Positions 39,707 to 63,289 of a stretch of 64,000 nucleotides of DNA are shown here, piece after piece. The stretch spans positions 496,001-560,000 of the forward strand of contig NZ_CP049990.1 in assembly GCF_011388195.1 (NCBI RefSeq), written 5' to 3'. Every line of letters begins with the position of its first letter. Within the stretch, counting starts at the first letter, position 1. A program made the position numbers and the translations under genes. The notes below the pieces were generated by a model. The model saw nothing but the letters and a program-made list of their open reading frames with translations. It was not told the origin of the DNA and made no database searches. The stretch comes from Pusillimonas sp. DMV24BSW_D (GTDB taxonomy: Bacteria > Pseudomonadota > Gammaproteobacteria > Burkholderiales > Burkholderiaceae_B).

Positions 39707-39751
39707 AATGGACCTCCGTTTGGTCATAGTAGGTAAGAGCTGCGTTTCAAA

Positions 39752-40702: not shown

Positions 40703-40705
40703 GTT

Positions 40706-42447: not shown

Positions 42448-42530
42448 GGCAATAAATTTCAAATAAAAGAATTTATAGAAGCACTTATTTCCTGATAAAT
42501 CCTATATATCAACGTTATTAGCGTCAATGC

Positions 42531-47035: not shown

Positions 47036-47050
47036 TCATTTGCTCCGTGG

Positions 47051-48097
47051 TTAAGCCGCTTTCACGGCCGAGCGCCCGGCCTTTTCTTCTTCAATCATAC
47101 TTTCCACTTTGCGGCGCATGCGTACCACCGAGGCATCCAGATTCAGCATGGTGGTTTTGAAGTCGGGGTAGGCGCGTTCGTTCTTATGAATGGCTTCCAG
47201 AATGACCTTGTCTTCATTGAACGCTTCGCGGAACGATGCCGACATTTCCGCATTGGTTTTGGCATCGGCCTTGAAGTTCTTAATGTGCATCCAATGGTCG
47301 ATAGTGGTGTTTTCGTCGACCGGAGTCATGAAGTGACAGGCGTAAATTTGTACGCAATCGTCGCGGTTGCCTTCGGGCGCACCGGTGCCGGTTTTAGCAG
47401 TACCGAAGTCAATGACCGCAATGCTGGGGGCGGTGTAATGGTAGTAGTGCCAGCGGTCTACATTGGTGGTGAAGCCGCCGAACTTCTGGAAAATTGGAAT
47501 AGCCGGCGCGTCGATCACCCATCGCCAGGTCAGCACGCCGTCTTCCGTACGCTCGGAGTTCACCGGCACATCTTCGCTGGCGGCATTGCCCAGTGTGGTT
47601 AGGTGTACAAAGCTTACGTGCGACGGGTCGCACAGGTTGTCGCACAGGTTCAAGTAGTTGCAATCAATTTGCAGGGCGTCACCTTCCACCACGTCCCATG
47701 CCGGGTCGTGGTATTGCTCAAGGTTGTATACCTTCGAGGTATCGGCCTTTTCAGCATCGCCCATCCAGATCCACACCAAACCCATATGCTCGTGCACGGG
47801 GTAGGTGGTGACCTTGGCGCCGGCGGGAATCTTTTCCTGACCGGGAATGCGCACGCATTTACCGGAGCAGTCGAACTCCATGCCGTGGTAACCACATTGA
47901 ATGGCATCGCCTTTCAAGCGGCCCATGGAAAGCGGCATCATACGGTGCGGGCAGATGTCGAGTTGCGCCACCACGTTGCCGTGGCTATTGCGGTACATCA
48001 CCACATCTTTTTCAACAATACGGCGCTTGGTGAGGCTATTGGTAATGTCGCGTGACCAAGCAATGGGATACCAGGTGTTCAATACGTATTCAGCCAT
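47051..48097 (-). CDS. Rieske non-heme iron oxygenase (VanA/TsaM-like)
   Basis: This 348-residue oxygenase alpha subunit has Rieske ligands Cys49, His51, Cys68 and His71 (CPH...CGYH) and mononuclear iron histidines His160 and His165 in CDPSHVSFVH. The layout fits the O-demethylase/methyl-monooxygenase branch. It needs a reductase that is not in the window. CGGAGATG precedes the ATG. It is the first gene of a two-gene operon divergent from a TetR regulator and may add oxygen to, or demethylate, an N-heterocycle or aromatic ether. Confidence 0.87.
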   Translation of the reverse strand: MAEYVLNTWYPIAWSRDITNSLTKRRIVEKDVVMYRNSHGNVVAQLDICPHRMMPLSMGRLKGDAIQCGYHGMEFDCSGKCVRIPGQEKIPAGAKVTTYPVHEHMGLVWIWMGDAEKADTSKVYNLEQYHDPAWDVVEGDALQIDCNYLNLCDNLCDPSHVSFVHLTTLGNAASEDVPVNSERTEDGVLTWRWVIDAPAIPIFQKFGGFTTNVDRWHYYHYTAPSIAVIDFGTAKTGTGAPEGNRDDCVQIYACHFMTPVDENTTIDHWMHIKNFKADAKTNAEMSASFREAFNEDKVILEAIHKNERAYPDFKTTMLNLDASVVRMRRKVESMIEEEKAGRSAVKAA

Positions 48098-48249: not shown

Positions 48250-48966
48250 ATGACACGCAAAGACGACGACGTTATGGCTTCAACCATTAACCTGGCGGCC
48301 AGCGCCGAAGAGGCCGGCATACCACGCAAAAAGGGGCGCACAAGGTCATCTAAAACCACGCGGGAAAATATTCTGAAAGCGGCTAAAAAGATTTTTGCGC
48401 GCGACGGCTATGGTGGGGCGCGGGTGGATAAAATCTCGAAAGCGGCCAAATCGTACGACAGCCTTATTTACTATTACTTCGGCAGCAAGGAAAAACTCTT
48501 CGTTGCAGTGCTGGAAGAGGCCTATAAAGATATTTTCGAGGCGGAAAAAAATCTGGACCTGGATATGAACGACCCGGTTGAGTCGTTACGCACCATTATT
48601 CAGTTTCCGTTTCGTTACTACATTGAAAACCCCGAACTCATCGTGCTGCTGAATGCAGAAAACCTGAACAAGGGAAAGCACATTGCCAAATCGAAAAGCG
48701 CCGACCAGTACGCCGGCCCGGCTATTTCCATTTTGCGCAATGTCATTGAAGAAGGCCAAAAGAAAGGCTTGTTTCGCAACGATGTCGATTGCGAACATTT
48801 GTACATGGCCATGACGGCCCTGGGCTACTTTTATATTTCCAACCGCTACACGTTTTCCGCGTTCCTGGCGGCCGACTTAATGGACCCGAAAGAAGTGGAA
48901 CATTGGGCCAAGTACATTAGTGATTTGCTCATGCAGTCGGTGCTCAAGTCTGGCCTGAAAATATAA
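48250..48966 (+). CDS. TetR-family regulator (paralogue of the right-edge TetR)
   Basis: This 238-residue TetR protein has a basic N-terminal tail, an HTH at about residues 35-80 (RENILKAAKKIFARDGYGGA, then LIYYYFGSKEKLF) and a helical ligand domain. GLFRNDV, ALGYFYISNRYTFSAFL and the NAENLNKGKHI stretch recur almost unchanged in the partial TetR at 63322-64000, so the two are close paralogues. It is divergent from the Rieske operon and is its probable repressor. Confidence 0.88.
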   Translation: MTRKDDDVMASTINLAASAEEAGIPRKKGRTRSSKTTRENILKAAKKIFARDGYGGARVDKISKAAKSYDSLIYYYFGSKEKLFVAVLEEAYKDIFEAEKNLDLDMNDPVESLRTIIQFPFRYYIENPELIVLLNAENLNKGKHIAKSKSADQYAGPAISILRNVIEEGQKKGLFRNDVDCEHLYMAMTALGYFYISNRYTFSAFLAADLMDPKEVEHWAKYISDLLMQSVLKSGLKI

Positions 48967-48976: not shown

Positions 48977-50356
48977 TTAATTGCGATACCGGGTTACCAA
49001 ATCGTGAAGCCGCACCTTGCATGTAAGTGCAATGTTTTCAAATAAGCTCGCAGGCATGTCAGGAGCATGGTTATGAATATCTTGCTCAACCTTGGCAATT
49101 GCAATTGACGCTTTGTCGTTTAACTCGTCGATCCACTGGTTCATTGTGTCAACGCCACCCGTTAAATGTCGCAACCTCATGTTGAATAAGTCATAGTGAC
49201 GCTTTTTGCCTTGTGCCCATGCCATGGATAACTTCAACCGACGTAAATGGAAATCGGGAAAGTTGGGCGACTGAACCAATGGCAACAACGAGATGACATC
49301 GTAAAGCGGCGTTAAAAAATAAGCGCCCGCACGATCAAGATACACACTGAAGTTCTTCGCATGGCCATCGGTTGCCGCCAGGGCGTAGAACAAGGCCTGA
49401 GCACGAAAGAACGTCGCCAAATCGGCCTGGGCATTGCGACCTTGTTCCAGCAAGCGCGCTATTTGATTAATGCCTGGCCCGCCATCCCTTTCATATTTCA
49501 TATGCGGGGGCAACCCAAATGCCTGACACATATCCTCTTGTGGAAGCCGCAACAAATTATTTTCTTGCCAATCGCGGTCGAAACGCTCAACTACTAGCAC
49601 GTTACGATGGCCCAAGGCTTGTATTGTGGTGTTAGCAACGGGGATACCGAAATGACGCAAGAGACGGCTGCACAACCACTCATTCTCTACCGAATACAAC
49701 GCGCTTAAGGCCGCGTTTCCGCCCACCTGCCCTAATGGAAACTTGATAATGTGTGTGGTGGGCGTAACACCGCGCGGTAACATCCATTGCCCCTTGTGCC
49801 ACAACAATGCCGTTTTTTCCTGCGCGCCGGCCAACGAAATGCGAAAATCGTTGGGGTTATCTTGATGCAATAATGGCCCGCCCGACAACACCGAATCAAA
49901 ATAATCTGCCAAGGCATGTTCTGAAAGGGCAACGCCTTGCACCGGCCCTGGAGAAGCAGCTTCCTCATCGTCTTCAAGCAGTTGCAGCGCACCGATGCAA
50001 TCACGACCCACTTCGCGTAACAGGGCAAAAGAGTCGCTAGGGCTTACCCCAAAACGCTGGCCGATACGACGACGAATATTGATATTGTCGGGCAATAGGT
50101 TGTCGAAATAGGCCCTAACGTGCGGCCCATTTTGTGTCAGCATACCGTTAACCACTGGCATTGAAAGAGACACCGGGCGAAAAGCCGGGTGATGCAGCCA
50201 CGCCAAGTCATACTCGAAGGTGTCAGAGCTTGGCTGCGCGCCGCGCCAGGTTACCCACCATCCTACCCGCACGCCGTTCATCCAAACGGACAGCCGACGA
50301 CGCTGCGAAGGCCTGCCCGGCCTTGCCGTTGAAGAAGCAGACTCGCCGGCTACCAT
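48977..50356 (-). CDS. hipA: HipA-family Ser/Thr kinase toxin
   Basis: This 459-residue HipA kinase has the N-terminal subdomain LSVWMNGVRVGWW, HVRAYFDNLLPDN, an ATP-binding HIIKFPLGQ region, and the catalytic/metal segment TDGHAKNFSVYL with PLYDVISLL. HipA toxins phosphorylate tRNA synthetases and slow translation. About 20 residues precede the usual start. The gene overlaps hipB by seven bases. Confidence 0.9.
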   Translation of the reverse strand: MVAGESASSTARPGRPSQRRRLSVWMNGVRVGWWVTWRGAQPSSDTFEYDLAWLHHPAFRPVSLSMPVVNGMLTQNGPHVRAYFDNLLPDNINIRRRIGQRFGVSPSDSFALLREVGRDCIGALQLLEDDEEAASPGPVQGVALSEHALADYFDSVLSGGPLLHQDNPNDFRISLAGAQEKTALLWHKGQWMLPRGVTPTTHIIKFPLGQVGGNAALSALYSVENEWLCSRLLRHFGIPVANTTIQALGHRNVLVVERFDRDWQENNLLRLPQEDMCQAFGLPPHMKYERDGGPGINQIARLLEQGRNAQADLATFFRAQALFYALAATDGHAKNFSVYLDRAGAYFLTPLYDVISLLPLVQSPNFPDFHLRRLKLSMAWAQGKKRHYDLFNMRLRHLTGGVDTMNQWIDELNDKASIAIAKVEQDIHNHAPDMPASLFENIALTCKVRLHDLVTRYRN

Positions 50357-50658
50357 TGCGGCTTGCTTCGCGTAACTGAAACCCCGGGTTCTTGCAAAGT
50401 GGGTTCCGCGAATACAGCATCCCGCGGCTGAGCCTGCAATTGCATGCCCAATATCGCTAGTATTTGCATAAATTGCTCGACCCGCATAGCGGTTGGATTA
50501 GACAAGAGTTCTGACACGCGTGACTGCTGCAAACCCAGCCGTTTGCCCAGCTCTTTTTGACTGATTTTTTGTTGCTTGCGCAAGCCATTCAACAATACGC
50601 TGATTTCACGTTCAGTACGTAAAGGAACAGGCTGCACAGAAACAGACTGTGTATTCAT
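50350..50658 (-). CDS. hipB: HipB-family antitoxin
   Basis: This 102-residue Xre-type HTH protein (KQQKISQKELGKRLGLQQSR then SELLSNPTAM) is encoded before hipA. It would inhibit HipA and repress the operon. The C-terminal 30 residues are a loose Ala/Gln-rich tail. Confidence 0.87.
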   Translation of the reverse strand: MNTQSVSVQPVPLRTEREISVLLNGLRKQQKISQKELGKRLGLQQSRVSELLSNPTAMRVEQFMQILAILGMQLQAQPRDAVFAEPTLQEPGVSVTRSKPQW

Positions 50659-50754: not shown

Positions 50755-51972
50755 TTAAACCGCGCCGGCCTTTTTCAACGACTCAATGGTTTGCGCATCA
50801 ATGCCCAGTTCACCCAGCACCTGTTCGGTATGCTGCCCCAGCGTGGGCGGCGGCGCAGTGTATTCAATCGGTGTGCCGGAGAACTTCATCGGGCTGGCCA
50901 CTAAATTCAGTGACCCATACGTTTCCGACGGCACTTCCACCTGCATATGGCGCGCCTGTACGTGGGGGTCGTCGAATACGCGGTCAATGGTGTTAATGGG
51001 GCCACAGGGAAAACCGTTTTCAATGGCTAACCGGCACCATTGGTCAATCGTTTTCAGCAACATGCGCTCTTGCAGCAAAGGCACGAGTTGATCGCGATTC
51101 GCCACGCGCTGTGCATTAGTGCTGAAGCGTTCATCTTCAGCCAAACCGCCGCAGCCGGCCGTTTCACAAAAGGCTTTGAATTGGGTGTCGTTGCCAATGG
51201 CTAACATAACGTAGCCGTCGGCACATTGAAATGGCTGGTACGGCACGATAGATGGGTGCGCACTGCCCAAACGCCCCGGCACTTTGCCGCTTAACAGGTA
51301 ATTGCTGGCCTGGTTCGCCAACGAAGCCACTTGCACGTCGAGTAACGCCACATCGATGTGCTGCCCCTGGCCGGTTTGTGTACGCGCATAAAGCGCCGCC
51401 AGAATGGCCGATGTGGCATACAGGCCCGTCAGAATATCCACCACGGCTACGCCCACTTTTTGCGGACCGCCACCCGGTACGGTGTCAGGCTCGCCGGTAA
51501 TGCTCATTAATCCACCCATGGCCTGAATCAAGGCATCGTAACCGGGGCGTTCGGCATACGGGCCGGTATGGCCAAAACCGGTAATGGAGCAGTAAATCAG
51601 TTTCGGATTCACCTTGGCCAGGCTGTCGTAATCCAGACCATACTTTTTCAGGCCGCCGAACTTGTAGTTTTCAACCAGAATATCGGCCTTGGCCACCAAC
51701 TCAAGCAACACTTTCTTGCCTTCAGGCTGGGTGAAGTCCAATGTAATGGAACGCTTGCCGCGGTTGGCACAGAAGTAATAGGCAGCGTCGCGGGGTTCGC
51801 CTTCAGCCGTATTCACAAACGGAGGCCCCCAGGCGCGGGTGTCGTCGCCCTTGCCCGGGCGCTCGACTTTAATGACGTCGGCCCCCAGGTCGGCCAGGTT
51901 CTGGGTCGACCACGGGCCGGCCAGAATTCTGGACAAATCAAGAACAACCACCCCGTTTAACGCGCCTGACAT
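50755..51972 (-). CDS. Class III CoA-transferase (CaiB/BaiF family)
   Basis: This 405-residue formyl-CoA-transferase-like enzyme has the catalytic Asp146 in ERPGYDALIQ, N-terminal LDLSRILAGPW and TGQGQHIDVALLD. It moves CoA between carboxylic acids. As the last gene of the hnr-like operon it could activate the dicarboxylic end product (for example glutarate) for beta-oxidation-like breakdown. That substrate is inference from the pathway. It is 15 bp after the amidohydrolase gene. Confidence 0.88.
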   Translation of the reverse strand: MSGALNGVVVLDLSRILAGPWSTQNLADLGADVIKVERPGKGDDTRAWGPPFVNTAEGEPRDAAYYFCANRGKRSITLDFTQPEGKKVLLELVAKADILVENYKFGGLKKYGLDYDSLAKVNPKLIYCSITGFGHTGPYAERPGYDALIQAMGGLMSITGEPDTVPGGGPQKVGVAVVDILTGLYATSAILAALYARTQTGQGQHIDVALLDVQVASLANQASNYLLSGKVPGRLGSAHPSIVPYQPFQCADGYVMLAIGNDTQFKAFCETAGCGGLAEDERFSTNAQRVANRDQLVPLLQERMLLKTIDQWCRLAIENGFPCGPINTIDRVFDDPHVQARHMQVEVPSETYGSLNLVASPMKFSGTPIEYTAPPPTLGQHTEQVLGELGIDAQTIESLKKAGAV

Positions 51973-51987
51973 CTACTTCACCCCTTT

Positions 51988-53178
51988 TTACTTTTCAATC
52001 ACCGGCAATTCCGTGGCCGGCGGTGTATTGCGGCTGCGCTGACAACGCACAATGCCGTCGATAATAACCATGCCAATACCCGGAATATCACCCAACTGGA
52101 CACTTTCCAGAATGTTTTCGGCCGGTGTGTGCTGGGCACGGTCCATAATCACGAAGTCGGCCGCACGCCCCACCTCGATCAAGCCGCAGTCCAGATCGCG
52201 CATGCGGGCCGTATTACCGGTGGCAAAACAGAACGCAATTTCAGCGGGAATGTCGGCCAGACTGGACAACTGTGCAATCATACGCAGAATCCCCAAGGGC
52301 TGCACACCCGAGCCGGCCGGGCCGTCGGTGCCCAGAATGACACGGTGCAAACAGCCTAGTTCATGCGCGTGGCGGGCAGTCAGTATGGCAATGCGCTCAT
52401 TACCGTTATGCACAATTTCAATGCCGCGCGTGGAGCGCTCACACAATTCACACACATGCTTGTAGGGCAAGGCCGTGTGACCGCCGTTAATGTGGCCGAT
52501 AATGTCGGCGTCGGCTTCCAGCACCACGTCTTTGTCAATGAGACCCGAACCTGGAATGGACGGGCCGCCGGTGTGAATGGTGCTTTGAATACCGTATTTG
52601 CGCGCCCACTTCACCATTTCAGCAGCTTCGTCACCCGCCTTCACGCTACCCAGACCAATCTCACCCAGCAGCTTCACACCCGCGTCGGCCAGATCTTTGA
52701 AGTCGGACTCAACCATGCCCTTTTCAATGACCGGCGCGCCGGCCAAGACTTTCACACCACCCGGGCGGGCGTTTTCAAAGGCACGTTGCGAAGTGATTGC
52801 CAACGCTTTCAAGCCCACGATATCTTTTGGGCGACCGGGGTAATGCACTTCCCCGGCTGAAATCATGGTGGTCACCCCACCGTTCAGGGTTGAGTCGATC
52901 CAGCCAATTTGCCCCTGGCGCGGCGTCCAGTCGCCCGCAACAGGGTGAACGTGTGAGTCGATGAGGCCGGGCGCCAGTGCGGTGCCCCGGCAATCGATAA
53001 TGCGATCGGCCCCTTCCACATCGCAATCTTTGTATTTACCCACCGCCGCAATACGGCCGTCGTTCACCACAATGGTGTCGGCTTCAAGAATGGGGTTGTC
53101 GAGGTCACCCGACAAGAGCAAACCAATATTTTTAATGACTACTTTGCCGGATTTGGCTTCGGGAGCTACTGCTGCCAT
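51988..53178 (-). CDS. Enamidase-like amidohydrolase
   Basis: This 396-residue amidohydrolase-superfamily protein has metal ligands His76 and His78 (DSHVH), the bridging Glu173 (LLGEIGLGS) in place of the common carboxylated Lys, His202 (TIHTGG), His229 or His234 (GHINGGH) and Asp285 (LGTDGPAGSG). A bridging glutamate and the late GNTARM...GLIEVGRAADFV segment resemble enamidase of the Eubacterium barkeri nicotinate pathway, which opens tetrahydro-6-oxonicotinate to 2-formylglutarate. A perfect AGGAGGA site precedes the ATG. The hnr-like gene in the same operon supports this reading; another cyclic enamide or lactam is possible. Confidence 0.8.
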   Translation of the reverse strand: MAAVAPEAKSGKVVIKNIGLLLSGDLDNPILEADTIVVNDGRIAAVGKYKDCDVEGADRIIDCRGTALAPGLIDSHVHPVAGDWTPRQGQIGWIDSTLNGGVTTMISAGEVHYPGRPKDIVGLKALAITSQRAFENARPGGVKVLAGAPVIEKGMVESDFKDLADAGVKLLGEIGLGSVKAGDEAAEMVKWARKYGIQSTIHTGGPSIPGSGLIDKDVVLEADADIIGHINGGHTALPYKHVCELCERSTRGIEIVHNGNERIAILTARHAHELGCLHRVILGTDGPAGSGVQPLGILRMIAQLSSLADIPAEIAFCFATGNTARMRDLDCGLIEVGRAADFVIMDRAQHTPAENILESVQLGDIPGIGMVIIDGIVRCQRSRNTPPATELPVIEK

Positions 53179-53233
53179 GTTGTTCCTCCTGTTGTATGCC
53201 GCGCCCTTTGATTAAGTGCGCGGTGTACATTAT

Positions 53234-53818
53234 TTAACGTAAACCGTCTTCGCCCTTGATTTCATCTTTGGTGAGCCCGCCTACGCGCGGCAAGGGACGG
53301 CCGGAATCGGTGACTGCCACGGCCACCACAATTTCATTGGCGCGTGGTGCGTCAGACACGCGTGCTTCTACCGCGTCGAAGTGGGTACGCACATAGGCCG
53401 CATCCTTGTGCCCCAGGGGAACGTCGATTGCAGCTCCCACACCGCCCATTTTCTTGGACGACGGCACCAGCGCCGCACCTTTTTCAATGGCTTTGCGCAA
53501 GGGGGCGCCCAGCTTGGGGTGCAAAATCGCGGCGGCATGCTCCAACTCGCCGGCTTCACCCACAATGGCGGCTTTACCATAACTTTCCGCCTGACTAGGC
53601 TGAATACCCAATGCCTTTACGCACTTTTCGCCCAGCAAACCGCCCAGCTCTTCACCCGCGGCAATCAGATCGTCGAGGCTTTCAACATATTTACCGGCAT
53701 ACGGGTTTTCAATAACCGCTACCGCCACCGCACGACGTGTGGGTGGGTTTATTTGCTTGCCCATTTCGATACGGGTTTCGTCAACGGTGACGACTATCTT
53801 ACGAATCTTTGCTGCCAT
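53234..53818 (-). CDS. DUF1185 'amino acid synthesis' family protein, short paralogue
   Basis: This 194-residue PF06684 protein has KAAIVGEAGELEHAAA, PSSKKMGGVGAAIDVPLGHKDA, and the terminal RVGGLTKDEIKGEDGLR. The structurally known member of the family has a chorismate-mutase-like fold; no reaction has been assigned. Relative to its neighbour it lacks a roughly 20-residue insertion after the first histidine region. AAGGAGAG precedes the ATG. The two paralogues in tandem suggest a hetero-oligomer. Confidence 0.8.
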   Translation of the reverse strand: MAAKIRKIVVTVDETRIEMGKQINPPTRRAVAVAVIENPYAGKYVESLDDLIAAGEELGGLLGEKCVKALGIQPSQAESYGKAAIVGEAGELEHAAAILHPKLGAPLRKAIEKGAALVPSSKKMGGVGAAIDVPLGHKDAAYVRTHFDAVEARVSDAPRANEIVVAVAVTDSGRPLPRVGGLTKDEIKGEDGLR

Positions 53819-53905
53819 TTTTACTCTCCTTACGGGTCTCTTCTGACACTAATTTTTGCTGAATTTCTACTGTTTTTTTAAACACTTAGCCTGAATGCAA
53901 AGCGC

Positions 53906-54559
53906 TTAACGCAAGCCGTCGTACTTGCTGATCTGGTCGGGTGTTAAGCCGCCCACGCGCTGATGAATTCGCCCACCGGTGGCCATCACCAGAACAAACA
54001 CAATTTCGTCGCGTGCCGGAGCACCGGGCACCCACACTTCCATGGCATCGAAATGGCCACGCACATAGCTGGCGGTAACATGGGTAAGGGGCACATCCAG
54101 ACGCGTACCGGGATCACCTACTTTCTTGGTCGATGGCACAATGGAAAGTGCGCGGCCCATTTCCAAACCTTTTTGCCCCGAACTCTGACCTTGTTTGTAC
54201 GAAGAACGGTCGCCCTTCCAGCCCAGTAATTCACGCATGGCGTAGCCACCGGGCACATGCCAAAGCGCACCATGCTCCAGTTCGCCGGCACTGCCCACAA
54301 TGGCGCCTTTACCGTAACTTTCGATATCGTCGGGCGTGACTTCCATGGCTTTCACCAGGCGCTCGGCCATTTCCAGGCCCACGGGATTCAAGGCTTCCAT
54401 CATGGGCACAATGTCGGGCTCATAGCGCCCGGCATAGGGGTTTTTAAGCACGGCCGCCACCGAACCCCGAATTAACGGCTTATCGGCCACCGGACCGAAT
54501 TCATGAAAAATCGTTTCAACCTGGGTTTGGATGTTCCGTACTTCGATAAGGTCTGACAT
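53906..54559 (-). CDS. DUF1185 'amino acid synthesis' family protein, long paralogue
   Basis: This 217-residue protein shares GAIVGSAGELEHGA, VPSTKKVGDPGTRLDVPLTH, SYVRGHFDAMEV and RVGGLTPDQISKYDGLR with the downstream paralogue. It has an extra segment around GWKGDRSSYKQGQSSGQ. Function is unknown; conserved His and Glu in the GELEH motif could be catalytic. It follows the UPF0280 gene by 35 bp. Confidence 0.8.
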   Translation of the reverse strand: MSDLIEVRNIQTQVETIFHEFGPVADKPLIRGSVAAVLKNPYAGRYEPDIVPMMEALNPVGLEMAERLVKAMEVTPDDIESYGKGAIVGSAGELEHGALWHVPGGYAMRELLGWKGDRSSYKQGQSSGQKGLEMGRALSIVPSTKKVGDPGTRLDVPLTHVTASYVRGHFDAMEVWVPGAPARDEIVFVLVMATGGRIHQRVGGLTPDQISKYDGLR

Positions 54560-54594
54560 GACGTTCCTTCCTGCTTTCCTGGAAATTTAAAGAA

Positions 54595-55584
54595 TCAGTT
54601 CAATGCGTTTTCAGTAATGTTTTGCGGCAAAATAAAGCGAGCCTGCCCTTGCAACACCATCACTGCACCTAAAATGGCGCCTTGTTCAAACATAGCGCGG
54701 GCGGCAGCTTCCCCGGCGTCAAGCGCCTGTTTAATCGCCTCAGGCGGCAATGGGCCTACGGCCACTGTGACGGGTAAATCACCTAAATCTGTGTCATCTT
54801 TTAAGGTGTTGGCCGGTGCGCGTTCAATGGCATCATGCGACACATTCACCTGGTTGGCAATGAGCGTAGCGGCCACGTCGGCCTGTGCCGCTTGCGGGGC
54901 AAATACCGTTACGCTGTCGGCAATACCCAGGCTTTGGCTGCGCCCACGCCAGCCGCTGGTGGCAATCCCGCCAATGCCCATTTCAGGGGTAATGGTGAAA
55001 CGACCGTCTACCGCCAAGCCGCCGCCTTCAACATGAATCGCTTCGGGGTTACTAAGCAAGCCCACGGTGTAGTGTCGGCCGGGCGCAAGATGCAAGGCGA
55101 TATCGCCACCGTTATTTACGTAAGCGCGTGGGAAGTCAGGGCGCACATCTGCCCCGGACATTGATGAGCCTGAACGAGATCCGTCGAATGCAGTTGTAGC
55201 CGATCGCCCTAACAAAGCATCTAGAACCTCATCGGCCACCGAACCCGCCACGGCCGCCATGGGGGTGACGAATTGCGCTCGATGGCGCCAACAGGCGGCA
55301 AACATGCGTTGGGCAACTGCCGAATGAAAAGATGCGCGTGGTTCTAATGTATTCGGAATAGGCCGGCGCAGGGCTTTCAACTCGATCACCAGTTCAGGCA
55401 ATATCTGTGCGAACCGTTCCCAGGCGCGCTCCAACCCGGCATTAACCGCGTCGGGGTCACCTTCAACCCCAATAATCAAATCAATCGGGCCATGCTGAAA
55501 ATGCATGCGCCCATCGGGCAATGTTGCGCACAACGCCCCCGAAGGGGCGCTGCGCGTGCGTTCCTGAAGCGCGTGCTGCGTCAT
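54595..55584 (-). CDS. UPF0280 family protein (ApbE-like fold)
   Basis: This 329-residue protein has AAVAGSVADEVLDAL, AYVNNGGDIALHL and GIATSGWRGRSQSLGIADSVTVFA, the pattern of the UPF0280 branch of the ApbE-like superfamily. ApbE proteins attach FMN to other proteins; UPF0280 members have no established reaction. The gene lies 18 bp after the hnr-like gene, so a role in flavin attachment or assembly of that reductase is a testable inference. The ribosome site is weak, suggesting translational coupling. Confidence 0.78.
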   Translation of the reverse strand: MTQHALQERTRSAPSGALCATLPDGRMHFQHGPIDLIIGVEGDPDAVNAGLERAWERFAQILPELVIELKALRRPIPNTLEPRASFHSAVAQRMFAACWRHRAQFVTPMAAVAGSVADEVLDALLGRSATTAFDGSRSGSSMSGADVRPDFPRAYVNNGGDIALHLAPGRHYTVGLLSNPEAIHVEGGGLAVDGRFTITPEMGIGGIATSGWRGRSQSLGIADSVTVFAPQAAQADVAATLIANQVNVSHDAIERAPANTLKDDTDLGDLPVTVAVGPLPPEAIKQALDAGEAAARAMFEQGAILGAVMVLQGQARFILPQNITENALN

Positions 55585-55602
55585 GCCCGGGCCACAAGCC
55601 GT

Positions 55603-57207
55603 TTAGGCCAGCATGGGTTTGTGGCCCAACGGCCAGGGGCTGTTTTCGTCGTGCCATTCAATAATGCGGTGGCGGTCTTTTTCCACAACATCTTGAATCG
55701 AACGCACTGCATCGGCATGGCCACCCAAGCGGGTGTAATCGTCAAGCTTCATGGAAAACTCGATCGGCGCCACAATAGCCGGTGTCGGCACATAACCAAA
55801 AGAGTTATCGGGCATGCGAAGCACATCGACCATCACGGTAATACCGCCACCCGGCCAAATATACGCAGGCGCCCCGCCACACGTTACATTCACCAATGAC
55901 GTTTTAATGGAGTTCGTCAGCCAAATGGGGTTTTCGGTGACTCCGGCACGCAAAGAGCCACCCGCACCCGCCAGGAACAACACGCTGGCCAGCGAGGGTT
56001 CGCAGTTTTCACCGATGCGCTCTACTGTTTTCTGCAGTGCATCGGGCATGGGCTTACGCTGCGGTTTCAGGTCTTCGTCAAGCTCGTAGTATTCAGCATG
56101 CTCGCCGGTGGTGGACGTAATCAGCATACGCAAGCCCGGCCAGGCCACGTCGGGGTTGAAACCCTCAATAATGGCGAGCGGGTCGGAAATGTCGGTACCG
56201 CCCCAACCATTACCGGGGTTGGCCACCTGGAAGTAACGACCCGGTGTCGATTTACGCCCTTTCATTTTGATGCCGGTAGGGGGAATATCCAAACAACGCC
56301 CGGCCTGGTGCTCGCTGAGCACCCCGGTAATGTGGTCGTCGACCACCACAACTTCGTCGGTATGGCCGAACCATTGTTTAGCAAAAATGCCGATCGCCGC
56401 TGAACCACAGCCCACCCGCATGCGCTTTTCTTCCACGCCGTCGACAATGGGGGCCTTGCCTGCCTGAACCACCAGTTGGGCGCCGCCGTCGATCGACAAC
56501 TCTACCGCTTCCTTATTACCCAACGCCATCATCATGTCGCAGGTCATGCGGCCTTCTTTCTTGCTGCCACCCGTTAAATGATGCACGCCACCCAATGACA
56601 ACATTTGCGAACCATATTCCGCGGTTGTAACGTGGCCGACAATTTCGCCTTTGAAACGAATATTCGATTGCTCTGGCCCCAGATAGCGGTCGGTATCGAT
56701 TTTGACCTTGAAACTGCAATAACTGAAGATACCTTCGGTGACCACAGTAACCATATCCACATCGTTCGCTTTCGAAGAAACAATAAACGGTGCAGGTTTG
56801 TAATCGGGGTAGGTGGTACCTGAACCAATGCCGCTGACGAACAAATCGTTCGGGTCGGAAACGGCATTCGCCTCAACATCGCGCGTGCGGGCATTCACCA
56901 GGCCCTCGGGGGCGTCGCCCGCAACGGGTTCGTGGCGCGTGGCCAGCCCCGTATCGTCAAGCCGGCGCATCAGGATGACGGGGTCGATACGAACCAGGTT
57001 GCCGTCTTCATTTCCCCAACGATCACAGGCACCCGTGCGGCCATCCGTAATTTGGCACAGCACCGGACAGGCGTTGCACTCTACCTTGTTTGAAGCCATT
57101 TTCTCGCTTCGCGGCTTGGATTTTTCCAATACCGTTGGCCCCGAGGTACTGGACGTGGTGTCGTCCAGGTTATCCATGCTGTGATCGATTTTTGTGTGTT
57201 CAGTCAT
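55603..57207 (-). CDS. 6-hydroxynicotinate-reductase-like iron-sulfur protein
   Basis: This 534-residue protein has a low-complexity N-terminal 40 residues, then CNACPVLCQI and GACDRWGN (Cys44, 47, 51, 61), a likely Fe-S site. The long C-terminal part contains GSGTTYPDYKPAPFIV, MRVGCGSAAIGIFAKQW and GGTDISDPLAI. This matches proteins annotated as 6-hydroxynicotinate reductase, which in E. barkeri reduces the pyridine ring to tetrahydro-6-oxonicotinate with ferredoxin. AAGGAG sits upstream of the ATG at 57207. It is the first gene of a six-gene operon with an enamidase-like hydrolase. The electron donor in this organism is unknown. Confidence 0.78.
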   Translation of the reverse strand: MTEHTKIDHSMDNLDDTTSSTSGPTVLEKSKPRSEKMASNKVECNACPVLCQITDGRTGACDRWGNEDGNLVRIDPVILMRRLDDTGLATRHEPVAGDAPEGLVNARTRDVEANAVSDPNDLFVSGIGSGTTYPDYKPAPFIVSSKANDVDMVTVVTEGIFSYCSFKVKIDTDRYLGPEQSNIRFKGEIVGHVTTAEYGSQMLSLGGVHHLTGGSKKEGRMTCDMMMALGNKEAVELSIDGGAQLVVQAGKAPIVDGVEEKRMRVGCGSAAIGIFAKQWFGHTDEVVVVDDHITGVLSEHQAGRCLDIPPTGIKMKGRKSTPGRYFQVANPGNGWGGTDISDPLAIIEGFNPDVAWPGLRMLITSTTGEHAEYYELDEDLKPQRKPMPDALQKTVERIGENCEPSLASVLFLAGAGGSLRAGVTENPIWLTNSIKTSLVNVTCGGAPAYIWPGGGITVMVDVLRMPDNSFGYVPTPAIVAPIEFSMKLDDYTRLGGHADAVRSIQDVVEKDRHRIIEWHDENSPWPLGHKPMLA

Positions 57208-57356: not shown

Positions 57357-58034
57357 CTACCGCCATAAATGCGGCACATCGTCGACCATCAGCACATCAC
57401 CAAACAAAGTTTGTACGTTATTCAGAGTGGCGTTGTGCTCTTCATCCGTTAACGTCGCGTTGGCATCCGCCAGAAACACCACCTGGTAATTCATTTGTTG
57501 TGCATCACGTGCAGTACTTTCCGAGCAGCAGTTGCTCATGGTGCCGGAAATAATCACAGTCTCAATACCGCGCTCTTTCAATATTCGATCCAACTCACTT
57601 GTACCGGGCGTAAAACCACTGAAGCGCGTTTTGTTTACGATCAGATCATCGTCTTGCACCTCAAGCTTGGGCCATAACTGATGACCATGCGCGCCCTCCC
57701 AAAAAGCTTCGGCAGATGCCCGTTTGGATTCCGGCGACGCAATCACGTTGTACCAAACCGTCCACGGGGTCGCTTCGGTTTCATCGTAGGTAAAACGCAA
57801 GAACACATTCACGCCACCTGCGCGGCGCATCTCGGCGCTGACCTTATTAATGTTGGGTACAATCTCGCGCGCCAACGGAATTTCCACAGCGCCGCCCGGC
57901 TCAACGAAGCCGTTCTGCATATCGATAATAAGGTGGGCGGTTTTACGAGGGTCAATTCGATGAAAGGCCTGAACACGGCCACGATGGCCGCGGCTACGCT
58001 CAACCAAATCGGGGTTCAATTGAATCTTATGCAT
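57357..58034 (-). CDS. Isochorismatase-fold cysteine hydrolase (first copy)
   Basis: This 225-residue cysteine hydrolase has the triad Asp38 (LIIDMQNGF), Lys135 (IVNKTRFSGF) and Cys170 (MSNCCSEST). Relatives hydrolyse N-carbamoyl compounds, maleamate, biuret or ureidoacrylate. It overlaps the LivM-like gene by eight bases and ends the transporter operon, so it may process the imported amide. Its sequence differs clearly from the second copy at 62648. Confidence 0.85.
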   Translation of the reverse strand: MHKIQLNPDLVERSRGHRGRVQAFHRIDPRKTAHLIIDMQNGFVEPGGAVEIPLAREIVPNINKVSAEMRRAGGVNVFLRFTYDETEATPWTVWYNVIASPESKRASAEAFWEGAHGHQLWPKLEVQDDDLIVNKTRFSGFTPGTSELDRILKERGIETVIISGTMSNCCSESTARDAQQMNYQVVFLADANATLTDEEHNATLNNVQTLFGDVLMVDDVPHLWR

Positions 58035-59049
58035 TAGCTTTCCTTGTTATTGAACGGTCGCCACCACGCAACGGGTTGCGCCACTTACGCGGCAACGGCA
58101 GCTTGAATACACGCCCGAAAATACCTTCAGGCATCACGACGACCGTAATAATGAACAGCACACCCAGCGTGAGCAGCCAGTACGCGCCTAACGCGCTCGA
58201 CAAAAGGCTTTCCACCCAGCGCACCAGAATCACACCCAGAAAAGCAGCCATCAGCACGCCCCGACCACCCACGGCCACCCAAATCAGCACCTCCGTAGAC
58301 AACGCCATCCCAATAACGGCAGGCGACACAAAACCAAACTGCGCAGTGAACAAGGCCCCTGCGTAACCCGCCATCGCACCCGAGAACGTAAAGGCCAGTA
58401 CTTTGAAGTCGGTTGTTTTGTAGCCAAACGAAGCCGTTCGCACTTCGTTGTTGCGGATACCCGCCAGCACCGCCCCTAACGGCGAGCGCTGAACAAACAA
58501 AGCTACCAAGTAAATCAGCAAGGCGGAAATGAGCACCACATAGAACATCTCGTTAGTGGTCATCATGTCGCCATCGCGCCATCCCGCAAACAAGGGTGGC
58601 ACACCCAGCAAACCGTCAAACCCGCCAATGAACTCAATGCGTTGGGCCACAATCTCAACCACCACGGCGGCGCACAAGGTCACAATAGCAAAGAACGCTC
58701 CCGACAAACCCCGACCCACAAACAGCAATTTGCCGAGAATATAGGCTGCTATGGCCGGCCCTACGGTTGCCAGCAACAGGCCCATAATTTGCGAACCGCC
58801 AAACCACGTAAATTTCTCCAATGTGGTTAAAGCCATAAGATACGCACCCAGGCCAAAGAAGATAGCCTGGCCGAAACACAAAATACCCACCTGCCCCCAG
58901 ATAAAAGCCAGGCTCATGGCCAAAATGCCGTAGGTAAGATATTGGCCGAACTGACTCACCGTCCATTCGTCCAGCGCCAACGGCGCCAAGAACAGCAGCA
59001 CCCAAACCAGCACAGTTAAATTAACGCCTAAAAATCCTTGCTTATTCAT
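58027..59049 (-). CDS. ABC transporter permease (LivM/UrtC-like)
   Basis: This 340-residue permease has nine or ten hydrophobic segments, AMSLAFIWGQVGILCFGQAIFF and the coupling loop AGIRNNEVRTASFGYKT. The FGQAIFFGLGAY motif is closer to urea/amide (UrtC-type) permeases than to LivM. The start at 59049 is one base after the LivH-like stop. Confidence 0.88.
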   Translation of the reverse strand: MNKQGFLGVNLTVLVWVLLFLAPLALDEWTVSQFGQYLTYGILAMSLAFIWGQVGILCFGQAIFFGLGAYLMALTTLEKFTWFGGSQIMGLLLATVGPAIAAYILGKLLFVGRGLSGAFFAIVTLCAAVVVEIVAQRIEFIGGFDGLLGVPPLFAGWRDGDMMTTNEMFYVVLISALLIYLVALFVQRSPLGAVLAGIRNNEVRTASFGYKTTDFKVLAFTFSGAMAGYAGALFTAQFGFVSPAVIGMALSTEVLIWVAVGGRGVLMAAFLGVILVRWVESLLSSALGAYWLLTLGVLFIITVVVMPEGIFGRVFKLPLPRKWRNPLRGGDRSITRKANA

Positions 59050-59050
59050 A

Positions 59051-59905
59051 TCAACGCTTCCGGGTAATGAGGCCTTCCGGGAAAAGGCGAATGAGGACAA
59101 TAGCCAGAATGAACACGGCCACCTGCGCCGCCACTTGGGTATCAATAGAGGCAATCACCGTATTGGTGGAGCCAATTAGGCCTACACCCAAAACGACCCC
59201 CATAAGATGTGCCACCCCACCCACCATAATGGCCAGGAACGCCGGGATCAGAAAGCCGCCGCCCATTTGCGGATCAACACTCATGATGGGAGCCATAACC
59301 GCACCCGCAAAACCAGCCAGCGCAGCGCCAAAGGCGAACGTCCAGCGGTCCATACTGCGCGTATTCAAACCCAGCGAGGCCGCCATAGGACGATTGGCAA
59401 TCACACCTCGCACCGCCAGGCCCAAGTGTGTGCGGTAAAACACGATGAACACCGCCAAGGTCACCAGCAAGGCCATGCCCATAATGAATAAGCGCATCGA
59501 CGGATACACCACACCCAAAATATTCACAGGCTCGGGAATGGGGTTCACAATACTTTGTGACGTGGGCCCAAAACCAATCACAATGGCTTGTTTAATGACA
59601 ATCGACAAACCCCACGTGGCCAAAATGGTATCGATAAAGCGGTGATAAACATGTCGGATCACAAGCTGCTCAATCACTATGCCGATGACCGCCAGGAAAA
59701 GCGGTGCCAGAATAAGTGACAGCCAATAAGGCATCTCCATCGCCTGAACGGCCAACACGGTGTAAGCACCCAACAGAAAAAATTCACCGTGCGCCATATT
59801 AATGACATTCATCAGGCCAAAAATCACCACCAGCCCTAACGCCACCAACAGCAGGCTTAGGGAATAGCTCAGGGTGTCCAGGCCCAGTTCAATTGCAAAT
59901 TCCAT
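59051..59905 (-). CDS. ABC transporter permease (LivH/UrtB-like)
   Basis: This 284-residue permease has LMNVINMAHGEFFLLGAYT near the N-terminus, as in UrtB-type proteins, and the coupling loop RGVIANRPMAASLGLNT. It is 18 bp downstream of the LivF-like ATPase gene. Confidence 0.88.
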   Translation of the reverse strand: MEFAIELGLDTLSYSLSLLLVALGLVVIFGLMNVINMAHGEFFLLGAYTVLAVQAMEMPYWLSLILAPLFLAVIGIVIEQLVIRHVYHRFIDTILATWGLSIVIKQAIVIGFGPTSQSIVNPIPEPVNILGVVYPSMRLFIMGMALLVTLAVFIVFYRTHLGLAVRGVIANRPMAASLGLNTRSMDRWTFAFGAALAGFAGAVMAPIMSVDPQMGGGFLIPAFLAIMVGGVAHLMGVVLGVGLIGSTNTVIASIDTQVAAQVAVFILAIVLIRLFPEGLITRKR

Positions 59906-59923
59906 TTATTGCTCCATAGAAAC

Positions 59924-60631
59924 CTAGACCGCCAAGTACTTGTGAATGGGCGCCGGATCATCCCTCAACGCCTGTACTTCGTCTGTTTCATAAACCACCT
60001 GACCGTTTTCCATGAACAGGCAACGCTGCGCCATGCCCAGTACCAGCTCCATATTTTGCTCAACCAACAAAATGGTGAGGCCTTGCTCTTTGGCAATGTC
60101 ACTTAATACCCGGCCGATATCCTGCACAATCGAAGGCTGAATCCCTTCCGACGGCTCATCAAGAAGCAACAGCTTGGGCTTGGCAATTAAGGCCCGCACA
60201 ATGGCCAACTGTTGTTGTTGCCCACCGGAAAAACTACCCGCGCGCTGAGTACGGCGCTCACGCAAAATGGGGAACAGGTCAAAGGCCCAGTCGGGAATCT
60301 CCTTCGACTTACCTGGGTGCCCCAGCAAACCCATGCGCAAATTTTCTTCCACGGTGAAATCGGAAAAAATATCGCGCCCCTGAGGTACGTAACCCATTCC
60401 CATGCGCGCAATTTCATAAGGTTTTTTACCAGCCAGTTCCTGACCATCGAACAACATGGAACCTTGGGAAATGCCTACGTGGCCCATTAACGCTTTCAGA
60501 AATGTGGTTTTGCCCATGCCGTTACGGCCTAACAGCGCCACCACCTCGCCCTTTTTGATCTCAATGGAGAACCCATCGAGCACCCGACTGCCGGCCAAAT
60601 AGCCCGCAATCACGTTTTCAACCTTCAACAT
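59924..60631 (-). CDS. ABC transporter ATPase (LivF/UrtE-like)
   Basis: This 235-residue ATPase has GRNGMGKTT, FSGGQQQQ and LLLDEPSEGIQPSI, the last typical of the UrtE branch. It starts at a TAATG junction with the LivG-like gene. Confidence 0.9.
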   Translation of the reverse strand: MLKVENVIAGYLAGSRVLDGFSIEIKKGEVVALLGRNGMGKTTFLKALMGHVGISQGSMLFDGQELAGKKPYEIARMGMGYVPQGRDIFSDFTVEENLRMGLLGHPGKSKEIPDWAFDLFPILRERRTQRAGSFSGGQQQQLAIVRALIAKPKLLLLDEPSEGIQPSIVQDIGRVLSDIAKEQGLTILLVEQNMELVLGMAQRCLFMENGQVVYETDEVQALRDDPAPIHKYLAV

Positions 60632-61365
60632 TACGCACTACCTCCCAGGTACGCCGCCACGACTTCGGGATCATTCTGAATATCGTCCAACGACCCTTCG
60701 CGCACAATACGACCGCGCAGCATTACCACCAAACGGCAATCCAACGCACGTACGAAGCTCATGTCGTGCTCAATCACCAACACGGTTTTCCCGTACTCGG
60801 TTTGCAAGCGACGCACCAATTCCGCTGTCTTCTGCGTTTCGGGAACGGACATCCCTGCCGTGGGTTCGTCGAGCATAATGAGGTCGGCGTCGTAAGCCAG
60901 CAACATGGCAATTTCCAACCACTGCTTTTCGCCGTGCGCCAAGGTTTCCACTTTATCGGTGGCTTTATCGGTTAGGCCGCACAGATCAAGCAGTTCGGCC
61001 AATCGTTCGGTGGGGCTGGAAAACAAGGTTGACATCACCCCCGCTTTGCCACCCTGACCAGCCAACGGAATCATCAGGTTTTCCACGACACTGAGTTCAG
61101 GATAAACGCCCGGAATCTGAAATTTGCGTGAAATACCACGGCGCGCCACCAAATACGCCGGCATGCCGGTCACCTCGGTGCCATTCAAAAATACCTGCCC
61201 TTCTTCAGGGCGCAGGTTCCCGGTAATAATATTGAACAGCGTCGTTTTGCCACAACCGTTCGGCCCAATAATGCAAGTAACGGTACCCGGCTGCACGGCC
61301 AACGAGAGGCCATGCAGCACGGTGATACCGCCAAAGCGTTTCACCACAGATTTAACTTCCAGCAT
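60631..61365 (-). CDS. ABC transporter ATPase (LivG/UrtD-like)
   Basis: This 244-residue ATPase has GPNGCGKTT, the signature LAHGEKQWLEI and MLDEPTAGM, all matching the UrtD branch of urea/amide importers. It lies 33 bp after the binding-protein gene. Confidence 0.9.
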   Translation of the reverse strand: MLEVKSVVKRFGGITVLHGLSLAVQPGTVTCIIGPNGCGKTTLFNIITGNLRPEEGQVFLNGTEVTGMPAYLVARRGISRKFQIPGVYPELSVVENLMIPLAGQGGKAGVMSTLFSSPTERLAELLDLCGLTDKATDKVETLAHGEKQWLEIAMLLAYDADLIMLDEPTAGMSVPETQKTAELVRRLQTEYGKTVLVIEHDMSFVRALDCRLVVMLRGRIVREGSLDDIQNDPEVVAAYLGGSA

Positions 61366-61398
61366 GCCGCCCCCTCGTTACCCGACAACACATCACTT

Positions 61399-62607: not shown

Positions 62608-62647
62608 GTGTTGCTCCTTCACTTTTGTAGATCGCGCCTGAGCGCAT

Positions 62648-63289
62648 TTATTTGCATTCCACCAAACGCAATTCACTGCCTTGCTTTAACGACTGGATAA
62701 CGGAGTCGGATCGCGACACAACACCGAAATGGGTGGCGATGTCATATAAAGAGGAAGCTTGTTCTCGCGGCCCGGTTGCGGCAACGCCGTCTTCAACCAC
62801 GACCACTCGATACCCCAGGAAAAAAGCATCGTGAACAGTTGAACGCACACAGATATTAGTCACTACGCCCATCACAACCAGTGTATCGACGCCCAGATCC
62901 TTTAGCGTTAAATCCAGATCGGTATTGAAAAAGCCCGAAAAACGGCGCTTGGTTACGTAATGGTCTTGCGGCTTTTGCTCTAGCTCATCCACGATGGCCG
63001 AACCCCATTCGCCTTCCATGCAGTGCGGGGTACGTTTCAAAAATTCACGATCGCACTTCATGCCGTGACGGTGCTTATCCTGGATATGCACCACCGGCAC
63101 ACCGACTTCCCGCGCGGCTCTCATCACCGCATTCTGCGGTGGATAAAGCACGTCAGCCCCGGGCAACATCATGGCGCCGCCCGCCGTACAGAAGTCATTA
63201 ATCATGTCGATTACCAATACGGCCGTACGGGAAGCGTCCAGCGTAATAATTTGATCAGACTGACGATGTTCGGAGAAAGATGAAGTCAT
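62648..63289 (-). CDS. Isochorismatase-fold cysteine hydrolase (second copy)
   Basis: This 213-residue cysteine hydrolase has the triad Asp28 (LVIDMINDF), Lys114 (YVTKRRFSGF) and Cys147 (VTNICVRST). It is nearest in style to RutB/nicotinamidase-like enzymes that cleave ureido or amide bonds. It is the first enzyme gene after the TetR gene and 40 bp before the binding-protein gene. Confidence 0.85.
   Translation of the reverse strand: MTSSFSEHRQSDQIITLDASRTAVLVIDMINDFCTAGGAMMLPGADVLYPPQNAVMRAAREVGVPVVHIQDKHRHGMKCDREFLKRTPHCMEGEWGSAIVDELEQKPQDHYVTKRRFSGFFNTDLDLTLKDLGVDTLVVMGVVTNICVRSTVHDAFFLGYRVVVVEDGVAATGPREQASSLYDIATHFGVVSRSDSVIQSLKQGSELRLVECK

Follow-up and report, generated by a model that had tools for sequence, protein, structure and literature searches.

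Which compound is degraded by an operon that joins a reductase resembling 6-hydroxynicotinate reductase to an enamidase-like amidohydrolase, with no nicotinate hydroxylase among its genes? The window analyzed here (the whole stretch of 64,000 nucleotides, genome positions 496001–560000) carries such an operon, and a first-pass annotation had read it as an undescribed pathway, possibly for a substrate other than nicotinate. Judging from the sequences, the operon is likely to encode the lower steps of the reductive (Azorhizobium-type) route for nicotinate, in a bacterium resembling Neopusillimonas maritima. The host is a marine bacterium, and nicotinate is vitamin B3. The features concerned are the following:

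45977–48097, minus strand: Rieske oxygenase (VanA-type C-terminal domain) and a second protein read as TIM-barrel-like, a linked module
48250–48963, plus strand: TetR-family regulator 1, divergent from the Rieske-containing pair (PF17938, PF00440)
50755–51972, minus strand: CoA-transferase family III (PF02515, E 8e-134)
51988–53178, minus strand: enamidase-like amidohydrolase (PDB 2vun, ENAMIDASE)
53234–53818, minus strand: DUF1185 (PF06684) paralogue b (E 5e-73)
53906–54559, minus strand: DUF1185 (PF06684) paralogue a (E 2.5e-66)
54595–55584, minus strand: UPF0280 (COG2122) protein, ApbE-like fold (NCBIfam NF003322 and model)
55603–57207, minus strand: 6-hydroxynicotinate-reductase-like protein (HNR), probably iron-sulphur (annotated homologues, Cys motif)
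57357–58034, minus strand: isochorismatase-family cysteine hydrolase 1, accessory, amidase-like (PF00857, E 5e-38)
58027–62676, minus strand: ABC transporter of the branched-chain-amino-acid/urea type (two permeases, two ATPases, binding protein; from the ORFs), accessory import
62648–63289, minus strand: isochorismatase-family cysteine hydrolase 2, accessory, amidase-like (PF00857, E 4e-47)
63322–64000 and past the window end, minus strand: TetR-family regulator 2, divergent from an aldehyde dehydrogenase outside the window

The six core genes, from the CoA-transferase to HNR, all lie on the minus strand with small gaps in the ORF list of the window, and the coordinates and names first given to them were confirmed by ORFs and by Pfam, NCBIfam and PDB matches. 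From strand and spacing they would be co-transcribed. The operon extends upstream past 57207 with the two hydrolases, the ABC transporter and a TetR regulator. Among the 80 closest relatives, HNR, UPF0280 and DUF1185 were found together in all 56 long loci, so the grouping of the core genes is not due to chance. Within the same 56 loci an enamidase was nearby in 54, a match resembling DUF1185 a was present in 51, a regulator at least 35% identical to TetR regulator 2 in 50, and a molybdenum hydroxylase was within range in at least 42. A wider sampling within the same order (20 loci) showed UPF0280 next to HNR in 16 cases and DUF1185 in 14.

At E 0.001 neither Pfam nor NCBIfam gave a family for HNR, and its name comes from annotated homologues, many homologous plasmid genes being annotated as hnr or 6-hydroxynicotinate reductase. 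Cysteines C44, C47, C51 and C61, invariant in 28 sequences, make up an iron-sulphur cysteine motif, and the MTEHTK start of the protein is common to loci L004, L100 and L107. PMC3511419 reports that the homologue of strain SG-6C is 42% identical to Hnr of E. barkeri. In a tree of 63 HNR rows, all 12 window-type loci fell into one clade (support 0.999) that, together with L114, was the sister group of clusters carrying both hydroxylase and enamidase (support 0.965).

The lack of a nicotinate hydroxylase was correctly noted for the window, where no MoCoBD_1 match was found (genome 496001–560000), but it does not extend to the genome. Nicotinate-hydroxylase-type molybdenum hydroxylase genes are located at ~2.81 Mb, beside NicC. 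An orthologue of the iron-sulphur subunit (75–100% identical) is present in all 12 window-type genomes, and the molybdenum subunits adjoined it in the 10 loci fetched (L225–L234), 7 of which also carried a fused-permease ABC transporter. The fused permease of our genome is 67% identical to the permease of a type B hnr cluster (L004). NicC itself is not found in the window operon, and a NicC of at least 83% identity was missing from 6/12 window-type genomes. In these six no NicC was found between the hydroxylase genes, and their homologues were more distant, 56% identical in G494 (elsewhere in the genome) and 39–44% in the others, with none at E 1e-80 in G300.

The assignment of the amidohydrolase comes from its best PDB match, 2vun (E 7e-115, 387 bits over 380 residues), the runner-up reaching 40 bits. 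Residues H76, H78, E173, H202, H229 and D285 align with identical residues of 2vun (His-X-His, Glu, two His, Asp), and we take them to be the metal ligands, with the Glu bridging. Opening of 1,4,5,6-tetrahydro-6-oxonicotinate is the proposed reaction. The CoA-transferase is closest to succinate–glutarate CoA-transferase (NF052585), with 515.8 bits, under the 750-bit cut-off and therefore not filed as a member, while the next model gave 309; glutarate activation is proposed. Other matches to it in the genome at E 1e-60 were 34–36% identical. Just beyond the window end, and divergent from the operon, there is a C5-semialdehyde-dehydrogenase-like gene, found beside the operon in 11/11 sister loci (79.6–98.5% identical), whose closest model is alpha-ketoglutaric-semialdehyde dehydrogenase, with a score under the cut-off. 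As this enzyme and the CoA-transferase both score under the cut-offs of their best models, we infer their substrates.

In the pathway that we propose, nicotinate would be imported and converted to 6-hydroxynicotinate by the molybdenum hydroxylase of the second locus (~2.81 Mb). HNR, perhaps with a covalent flavin and matured by UPF0280, would reduce this to 1,4,5,6-tetrahydro-6-oxonicotinate, and the enamidase would open the ring to give 2-formylglutarate and ammonia. Loss of CO2, for which DUF1185 a/b is the candidate enzyme, would yield glutarate semialdehyde, to be oxidized to glutarate by the divergent aldehyde dehydrogenase and activated to glutaryl-CoA by the family III CoA-transferase. 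The gene set would thereby cover most of the steps from 6-hydroxynicotinate to glutaryl-CoA. The order read in the first-pass annotation, ring reduction followed by hydrolytic ring opening and CoA activation of a dicarboxylate, is in agreement with this pathway. The gene-neighbourhood comparison suggested there, once carried out, points to nicotinate.

The reductase family as such is not tied to nicotinate, as there are HNR clusters with no enamidase in range (e.g., L048, L051–L055, L058, L060), among them clusters with hydantoinase-type genes, and these enamidase-free clusters fall elsewhere in the HNR tree, together with three enamidase-bearing loci (L047, L050, L248). Such diversification would suit a pathway for a different N-heterocycle, with reductase and amidohydrolase retuned to another lactam, and so would an operon that has no hydroxylase and owns a transporter and two amidase-like hydrolases not needed for nicotinate alone. 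We consider this quite improbable, since the hydroxylase orthologue accompanies the operon in every window-type genome, its sister clusters in the tree are hydroxylase-linked, and HNR and enamidase are 63–72% and 75–85% identical, respectively, to their counterparts in the remaining relatives identified, which are in many cases also hydroxylase-linked. Besides, the transporter and hydrolases are missing from window-type loci L095, L097, L099, L101, L102 and L103 and are therefore not essential to the core. It is possible, if rather doubtful, that the operon here mainly serves a pyridine amide, perhaps already 6-hydroxylated, that enters the HNR route at 6-hydroxynicotinate after ABC import and deamidation by the isochorismatase-family enzymes; candidates would possibly be 6-hydroxynicotinamide, or N-methyl-2-pyridone-5-carboxamide via the linked Rieske oxygenase. 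The transporter and hydrolases adjoin the reductase in 5/12 window-type genomes (G000, G301, G303, G495, G420), whereas in the seven remaining genomes the interval from regulator to reductase does not contain them. Weaker isochorismatase-family ORFs (29–30% identical) occur near HNR in L129, L137, L146 and L172. In each of the two hydrolases, D, K and C occupy the positions that a cysteine-hydrolase triad would require; however, neither matches any nicotinamidase model well. Hydrolase 1 is RutB-like with a score far under the cut-off, and the binding protein of the transporter matches UrtA-type models, also under cut-off. The Rieske pair is found near HNR in L095, L098, L099, L100, L162, L051 and L052, the first four with TetR regulator 1 in the same place; its second protein matched nothing in Pfam, nor any NCBIfam model at E 1e-20. 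None of the papers listed in a literature search named the pyridone carboxamide. Within the nicotinate pathway, the transporter and the two amidase-like genes probably serve as an accessory input, bringing in a related pyridine amide and deamidating it.

For UPF0280, the match to NF003322 (349.4 bits, cut-off 290) and the predicted structure (pLDDT 88.1) can be considered together. The model superimposes on the COG2122 protein DVU1097 (2o34; Z 18.9, rmsd 3.3, 216 residues) and on the FMN transferase 4ifw (Z 15.6, rmsd 3.3, 218 residues), so that the predicted fold is that of ApbE flavin transferases. The catalytic His motif of ApbE is HxIDPxTG, and H-x-I-D was found in 0/28 sequences; despite its fold, the protein was not filed as a flavin transferase proper. 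One possible role is in the maturation of HNR, perhaps at the level of the flavin, which we take to be covalently bound in Hnr. In the homocysteine synthesis system described in PMC5764234, a COG2122 protein likewise has a dedicated partner enzyme, although there it is DUF39 and here it would be HNR. No Pfam match joined HNR and DUF39 at E 10, a search in which filters drop weak matches.

The DUF1185 pair (244.7 and 222.9 bits against the PF06684 cut-off of 27; 41% identical to each other; solved relatives of b, 2qtp at E 2.6e-95 and 3byq) is the candidate for decarboxylation because CO2 loss from 2-formylglutarate is the one step without an assigned gene; b would be the decarboxylase and a possibly its partner subunit. 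DUF1185 is near aldehyde dehydrogenases in the window type and in L243, L244 and L246, the latter presumably a trigonelline-type (tgn) cluster by its gene make-up, where the DUF1185 protein is TgnF. A flavin-dependent monooxygenase opens the ring in tgn clusters, whereas the window route would reduce it, but a step of the trigonelline type should also release a 2-formyl-dicarboxylate. Tentatively, and we regard it as unlikely to hold in full, DUF1185 would be a 2-formyl-dicarboxylate decarboxylase (2-formylglutarate to glutarate semialdehyde for nicotinate, 2-formylsuccinate to succinate semialdehyde for trigonelline) and UPF0280 an ApbE-fold maturase that attaches the flavin covalently to HNR, for which the invariant D291-H-I-T294-G-V motif may be the site. 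Decarboxylation of 2-formylsuccinate would explain how TgnF 'assists' the semialdehyde dehydrogenase. It is also quite possible, if short of probable, that DUF1185 is no decarboxylase and helps semialdehyde dehydrogenases, e.g., by opening a lactol form, as suggested for TgnF. According to work cited in PMC7913881, TgnF stimulates the TgnE-dependent oxidation of succinate semialdehyde, and the aldehyde dehydrogenase neighbours agree with such a role, but the same source saw no effect of HcdD on its partner. Moreover, among the 80 closest relatives a window-like aldehyde dehydrogenase was in range only in L113, and most HNR clusters thus carry DUF1185 with none nearby.

How aerobes break down nicotinate reductively has been known, in chemical terms, for decades. 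In 2006 Alhapel reportedly described that Eubacterium barkeri ferments nicotinate with Hnr and enamidase and then methyleneglutarate mutase, to propionate and pyruvate; the window shares the first two enzymes, while its CoA-transferase and semialdehyde dehydrogenase point to glutaryl-CoA. In PMC3511419, an hnr-containing cluster is described for Azorhizobium caulinodans ORS571, Bradyrhizobium japonicum, Rhodopseudomonas palustris and Bradyrhizobiaceae SG-6C and already assigned to nicotinate, with the pathway continuing via glutarate, and "undescribed" is therefore not a term that we would keep. Compared by that description, the hnr-like reductase, UPF0280, DUF1185 and enamidase of the core are alike, and the window lineage differs in having the hydroxylase at another locus, a CoA-transferase with an adjacent aldehyde dehydrogenase and, in some members, another type of ABC transporter together with two hydrolases upstream. 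The reductive route being already known from a few bacteria, the gain here is a near-complete gene list and candidate roles for the DUF1185 and UPF0280 families. A search of the open literature found no paper assigning genes after ring opening, and since this lineage groups most of the set together, the search for the decarboxylase and the maturation factor can be narrowed to a handful of proteins.

In Pseudomonas putida, the oxidative nic pathway (NicAB, NicC) has the nicotinate hydroxylase step in common with this route and then hydroxylates 6-hydroxynicotinate, which the window operon should reduce. With NicC and NicAB-like genes elsewhere in the window genome, 6-hydroxynicotinate may enter either route, and a single genome would carry genes for an oxidative (NicC) and a competing reductive (HNR) fate. 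If true, the reading of DUF1185 and UPF0280 given above would provide jobs for two function-less families and close the Azorhizobium pathway at the gene level.

Gene content suggests that the substrate of the cluster is most likely nicotinate, by way of 6-hydroxynicotinate. The six genes proposed as an operon in the first-pass annotation were found in their places, all on the minus strand and with small gaps between them, and Pfam and NCBIfam searches backed the identities of the family III CoA-transferase, the amidohydrolase, the two DUF1185 proteins (PF06684) and UPF0280. The 6-hydroxynicotinate-reductase-like protein (HNR) matched no family of either collection at E 0.001, and at E up to 10 its sole Pfam match was GCV_T_C (E 0.11). 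Many plasmid-borne homologues are annotated as 6-hydroxynicotinate reductase, and C44, C47, C51 and C61 were invariant in 28 sequences. Its AlphaFold2 model was poor (mean pLDDT 60.8, pTM 0.49; best Foldseek E 0.22) and allowed no conclusion, including on a relation to DUF39. Against 2vun, the enamidase of E. barkeri, the amidohydrolase scored 387 bits (E 7e-115), with the next entry at 40 bits, and its H76, H78, E173, H202, H229 and D285 align with the same residues of 2vun. Upstream the operon continues with an isochorismatase-family hydrolase (ISOC1), an ABC transporter (its binding protein at 61402-62676), a second isochorismatase-family hydrolase and a TetR regulator, and a divergent aldehyde dehydrogenase lies directly beyond the window end. 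Other features of the window are:

4416-9407, plus strand: cofE, cofD and fused cofGH (coenzyme F420 synthesis), all three passing the cut-off of one or more NCBIfam models
24407-34458, minus strand: genes for an ABC transporter, an acyl-CoA/aryl ligase and a protein resembling salicylyl-CoA 5-hydroxylase
36974-42462, minus strand: another ABC transporter operon, which includes a gene for a polysaccharide-deacetylase-family protein (PF01522) and is transcribed divergently from an IclR-like regulator gene
45977-48097, minus strand: Rieske oxygenase and a protein without Pfam match, recurrent near HNR clusters of differing types
48977-50658, minus strand: HipA/HipB-like toxin-antitoxin pair between the regulator TetR1 and the CoA-transferase, with a HipA N-terminal domain match

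The F420 synthesis genes are found here in a betaproteobacterium. The second cluster of the list is, as predicted from its genes, another aromatic catabolic operon, and a transporter operon like the third directly adjoins the CoA-transferase in one relative (L094). Rieske-based N-demethylation of methylpyridones was considered as the main job of the cluster and set aside, a literature search on it being uninformative; it is retained as part of a rival explanation. The HipA/HipB-like pair, whose HipB-like ORF had no NCBIfam match, is present also in Neopusillimonas maritima (L093 and L113, a single genome) and was not detected in L095, L098, L099 or L100.

We compared the loci of relatives and distinguished three arrangements. 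Type A (the window and L093-L103) has HNR, UPF0280, both DUF1185 genes, enamidase and CoA-transferase, mostly the regulator and sometimes the transporter and hydrolases, and is free of a nearby molybdenum hydroxylase. Type B has the molybdenum hydroxylase, a fused ABC permease, enamidase and often a ferredoxin-NADP reductase, with no CoA-transferase nearby. Type C usually combines HNR with a xanthine-dehydrogenase-like hydroxylase, has no enamidase in range and in several cases has hydantoinase genes. In an HNR tree of 63 rows, with types labeled from the neighbourhoods and identical rows for L109 and L192, the 12 type A loci formed one clade (0.999) that L114 joins (0.994), sister to type B (0.965), with type C outside both. 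The enamidase-bearing L047, L050 and L248 fell among enamidase-free or plasmid clusters.

HNR of the window is 99.6-100% identical to that of N. maritima 17-4A (L113) and is carried by all five genomes of the genus, its own counted. Matches were found in 40 of 268 family genomes, some weak or partial, and in 25 of 300 order genomes, one weak; that of G176 was weak and partial. From a scan of at least 581 relatives among named genomes the best 80 loci were kept, and as these are the closest the counts favour type B. The sets overlap, since each of the pairs L093/L113, L046/L180, L106/L181 and L109/L192 is a single record. Paraburkholderia xenovorans LB400 also carries the cluster (L119). Among the 56 kept loci longer than 17 kb, with presence taken as a match of at least 35% identity within a 9 kb flank, HNR, UPF0280 and DUF1185 each occurred in all 56, the fused permease in 53 and a window-like TetR regulator in 50. 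The CoA-transferase, the aldehyde dehydrogenase and both hydrolases were found in a single locus, that of N. maritima. ORFs with weaker isochorismatase similarity (29-30% identical) appeared in L129, L137, L172 and the shorter L146, and an ISOC1 orthologue (67% identical) lies apart from the reductase in G454. Enamidase was present in 19 of 20 same-family loci, the exception being a 3.6-kb contig. Of the 20 same-order loci, 16 have UPF0280 beside HNR, 14 DUF1185 and 6 enamidase; DUF1185 is present in all six that have enamidase. An all-against-all comparison of 11 type A loci, some cut by contig ends, found no further gene (at least 180 aa, outside the reference set) common to more than two.

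The first-pass annotation had stated that no nicotinate hydroxylase is present. This holds for the window, which contains none of the eight MoCoBD_1 matches of the genome (3,191,899 bases, one contig), and fails for the genome, where a type B-like hydroxylase is found at ~2.81 Mb (L071; Fe-S subunit 67% and Mo subunit 55% identical to those of the type B cluster L004). It adjoins NicC, a 6-hydroxynicotinate 3-monooxygenase (5eow, E 1e-156), and an ABC transporter of a type other than the window's, with a fused permease 67% identical to that of L004. Orthologues of the Fe-S subunit (75-100% identical) are found in all 12 type A genomes, in which the pathway is thus encoded in two places. NicC of at least 83% identity is found in 6 of the 12, so about half of the type A genomes have no close NicC competitor; L225, L226, L227, L228, L232 and L234 carry the hydroxylase genes with no NicC between them. 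Of the six genomes without a close NicC, G494 has a 56% homologue elsewhere, four have homologues of 39-44%, the level of a second protein of the window's own genome, and G300 yielded no homologue at E 1e-80. In the own genome two routes, through NicC and through HNR, may compete for 6-hydroxynicotinate, and nicC would likewise give N. maritima a way around HNR.

The literature places the hnr cluster of A. caulinodans and SG-6C in nicotinate breakdown via tetrahydro-oxonicotinate and glutarate (PMC3511419), so this kind of cluster was already known and is not undescribed as initially thought, and restates reduction followed by hydrolytic ring opening to 2-formylglutarate (PMC9304392). The gene content agrees in outline with the ring reduction, ring opening and CoA activation proposed in the first reading. 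In the work of Kitts in 1992, the product of ring opening reportedly lost CO2, the aldehyde was oxidized to glutarate, and CoA was then transferred from succinyl-CoA. For these late steps the aldehyde dehydrogenase would form glutarate and the CoA-transferase would carry out the transfer from succinyl-CoA. The former adjoins the operon in all 11 sister loci L093-L103 (79.6-98.5% identical). The best models were alpha-ketoglutaric-semialdehyde dehydrogenase (541.8 bits, cut-off 770) and succinate--glutarate CoA-transferase (515.8 bits, cut-off 750), and since both scores are below cut-off we infer the substrates.

A different substrate, as the first-pass annotation suggested, is a minor rival. 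The neighbourhoods, with enamidase in 54 of the 56 long loci (absent from L133 and L180) and molybdenum hydroxylase in at least 42 (a lower bound, as the flank was only 9 kb), the hydroxylase in trans and the HNR tree all point to nicotinate. Judging from these data we consider the reductive, Azorhizobium-type nicotinate pathway quite probable; the exceptions in the tree and the 56% NicC homologue of G494 keep us from rating it higher. Seven other loci (L048, L049, L051, L058, L060, L007 and L008) have HNR with hydantoinase or oxoprolinase genes and no enamidase in range. Such clusters may be candidates for a truly different substrate, and the earlier idea may apply there.

The predicted structure of UPF0280 was confident (pLDDT 88.1). 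Its closest solved relative was DVU1097 (COG2122; Z 18.9, 216 residues), followed by ApbE-type flavin transferases (Z 15.6, 218 residues), with other folds at Z 7.3 or less. The HNR of E. barkeri bears a covalent flavin, and the motif D291-H-I-T294-G-V, invariant in HNR, resembles the ApbE target motif. A role of UPF0280 as maturation factor of HNR is plausible. L247 (G746), where the run is hydroxylase-UPF0280-DUF1185a-DUF1185b and HNR is missing from its usual place, and L056, L057, L059 and L061, with HNR and neither UPF0280 nor DUF1185 in range, argue against a strict dependence.

DUF1185 was found in 8 of 274 genomes of the class, its own counted, and we examined seven loci (L242-L248) from six of them. 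L246 has DUF1185, an alpha/beta hydrolase, a flavin reductase, a luciferase-like oxygenase and an aldehyde dehydrogenase, which we take to be the make-up of a trigonelline cluster; L243 and L245 partly resemble it, L244 has an aldehyde dehydrogenase, L242 has no clear partner, and L247 and L248 represent the arrangement hydroxylase-UPF0280-DUF1185. The chemistry of trigonelline degradation is the basis for a 2-formyl-dicarboxylic acid intermediate. The nicotinate and trigonelline routes should both pass through such an acid, losing CO2 before a semialdehyde dehydrogenase acts, and DUF1185 is therefore proposed, tentatively and with considerable doubt, as its candidate decarboxylase. One article states that the DUF1185 protein TgnF stimulates the oxidation of succinate semialdehyde during trigonelline degradation and that HcdD of a coumarin pathway showed no effect of this kind (PMC7913881); the literature searched gave no hint of DUF1185 function beyond TgnF. 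Loci with DUF1185 and no enamidase in range (L046, L048, L051-L054, L058 and L060) argue against an exclusive role on 2-formylglutarate, unless hydantoinase-type opening gives a like product. The proposal leaves unexplained the coumarin case, the enamidase-free type C clusters and the third DUF1185 copy of the genome:

L064:9174-9752: third DUF1185, beside ORFs read by eye as FAD-monooxygenase-like and cupin-like and an ABC transporter

The new elements are the split arrangement, the extra glutarate genes and the accessory module for import, together with roles for DUF1185 and UPF0280 that can be tested.
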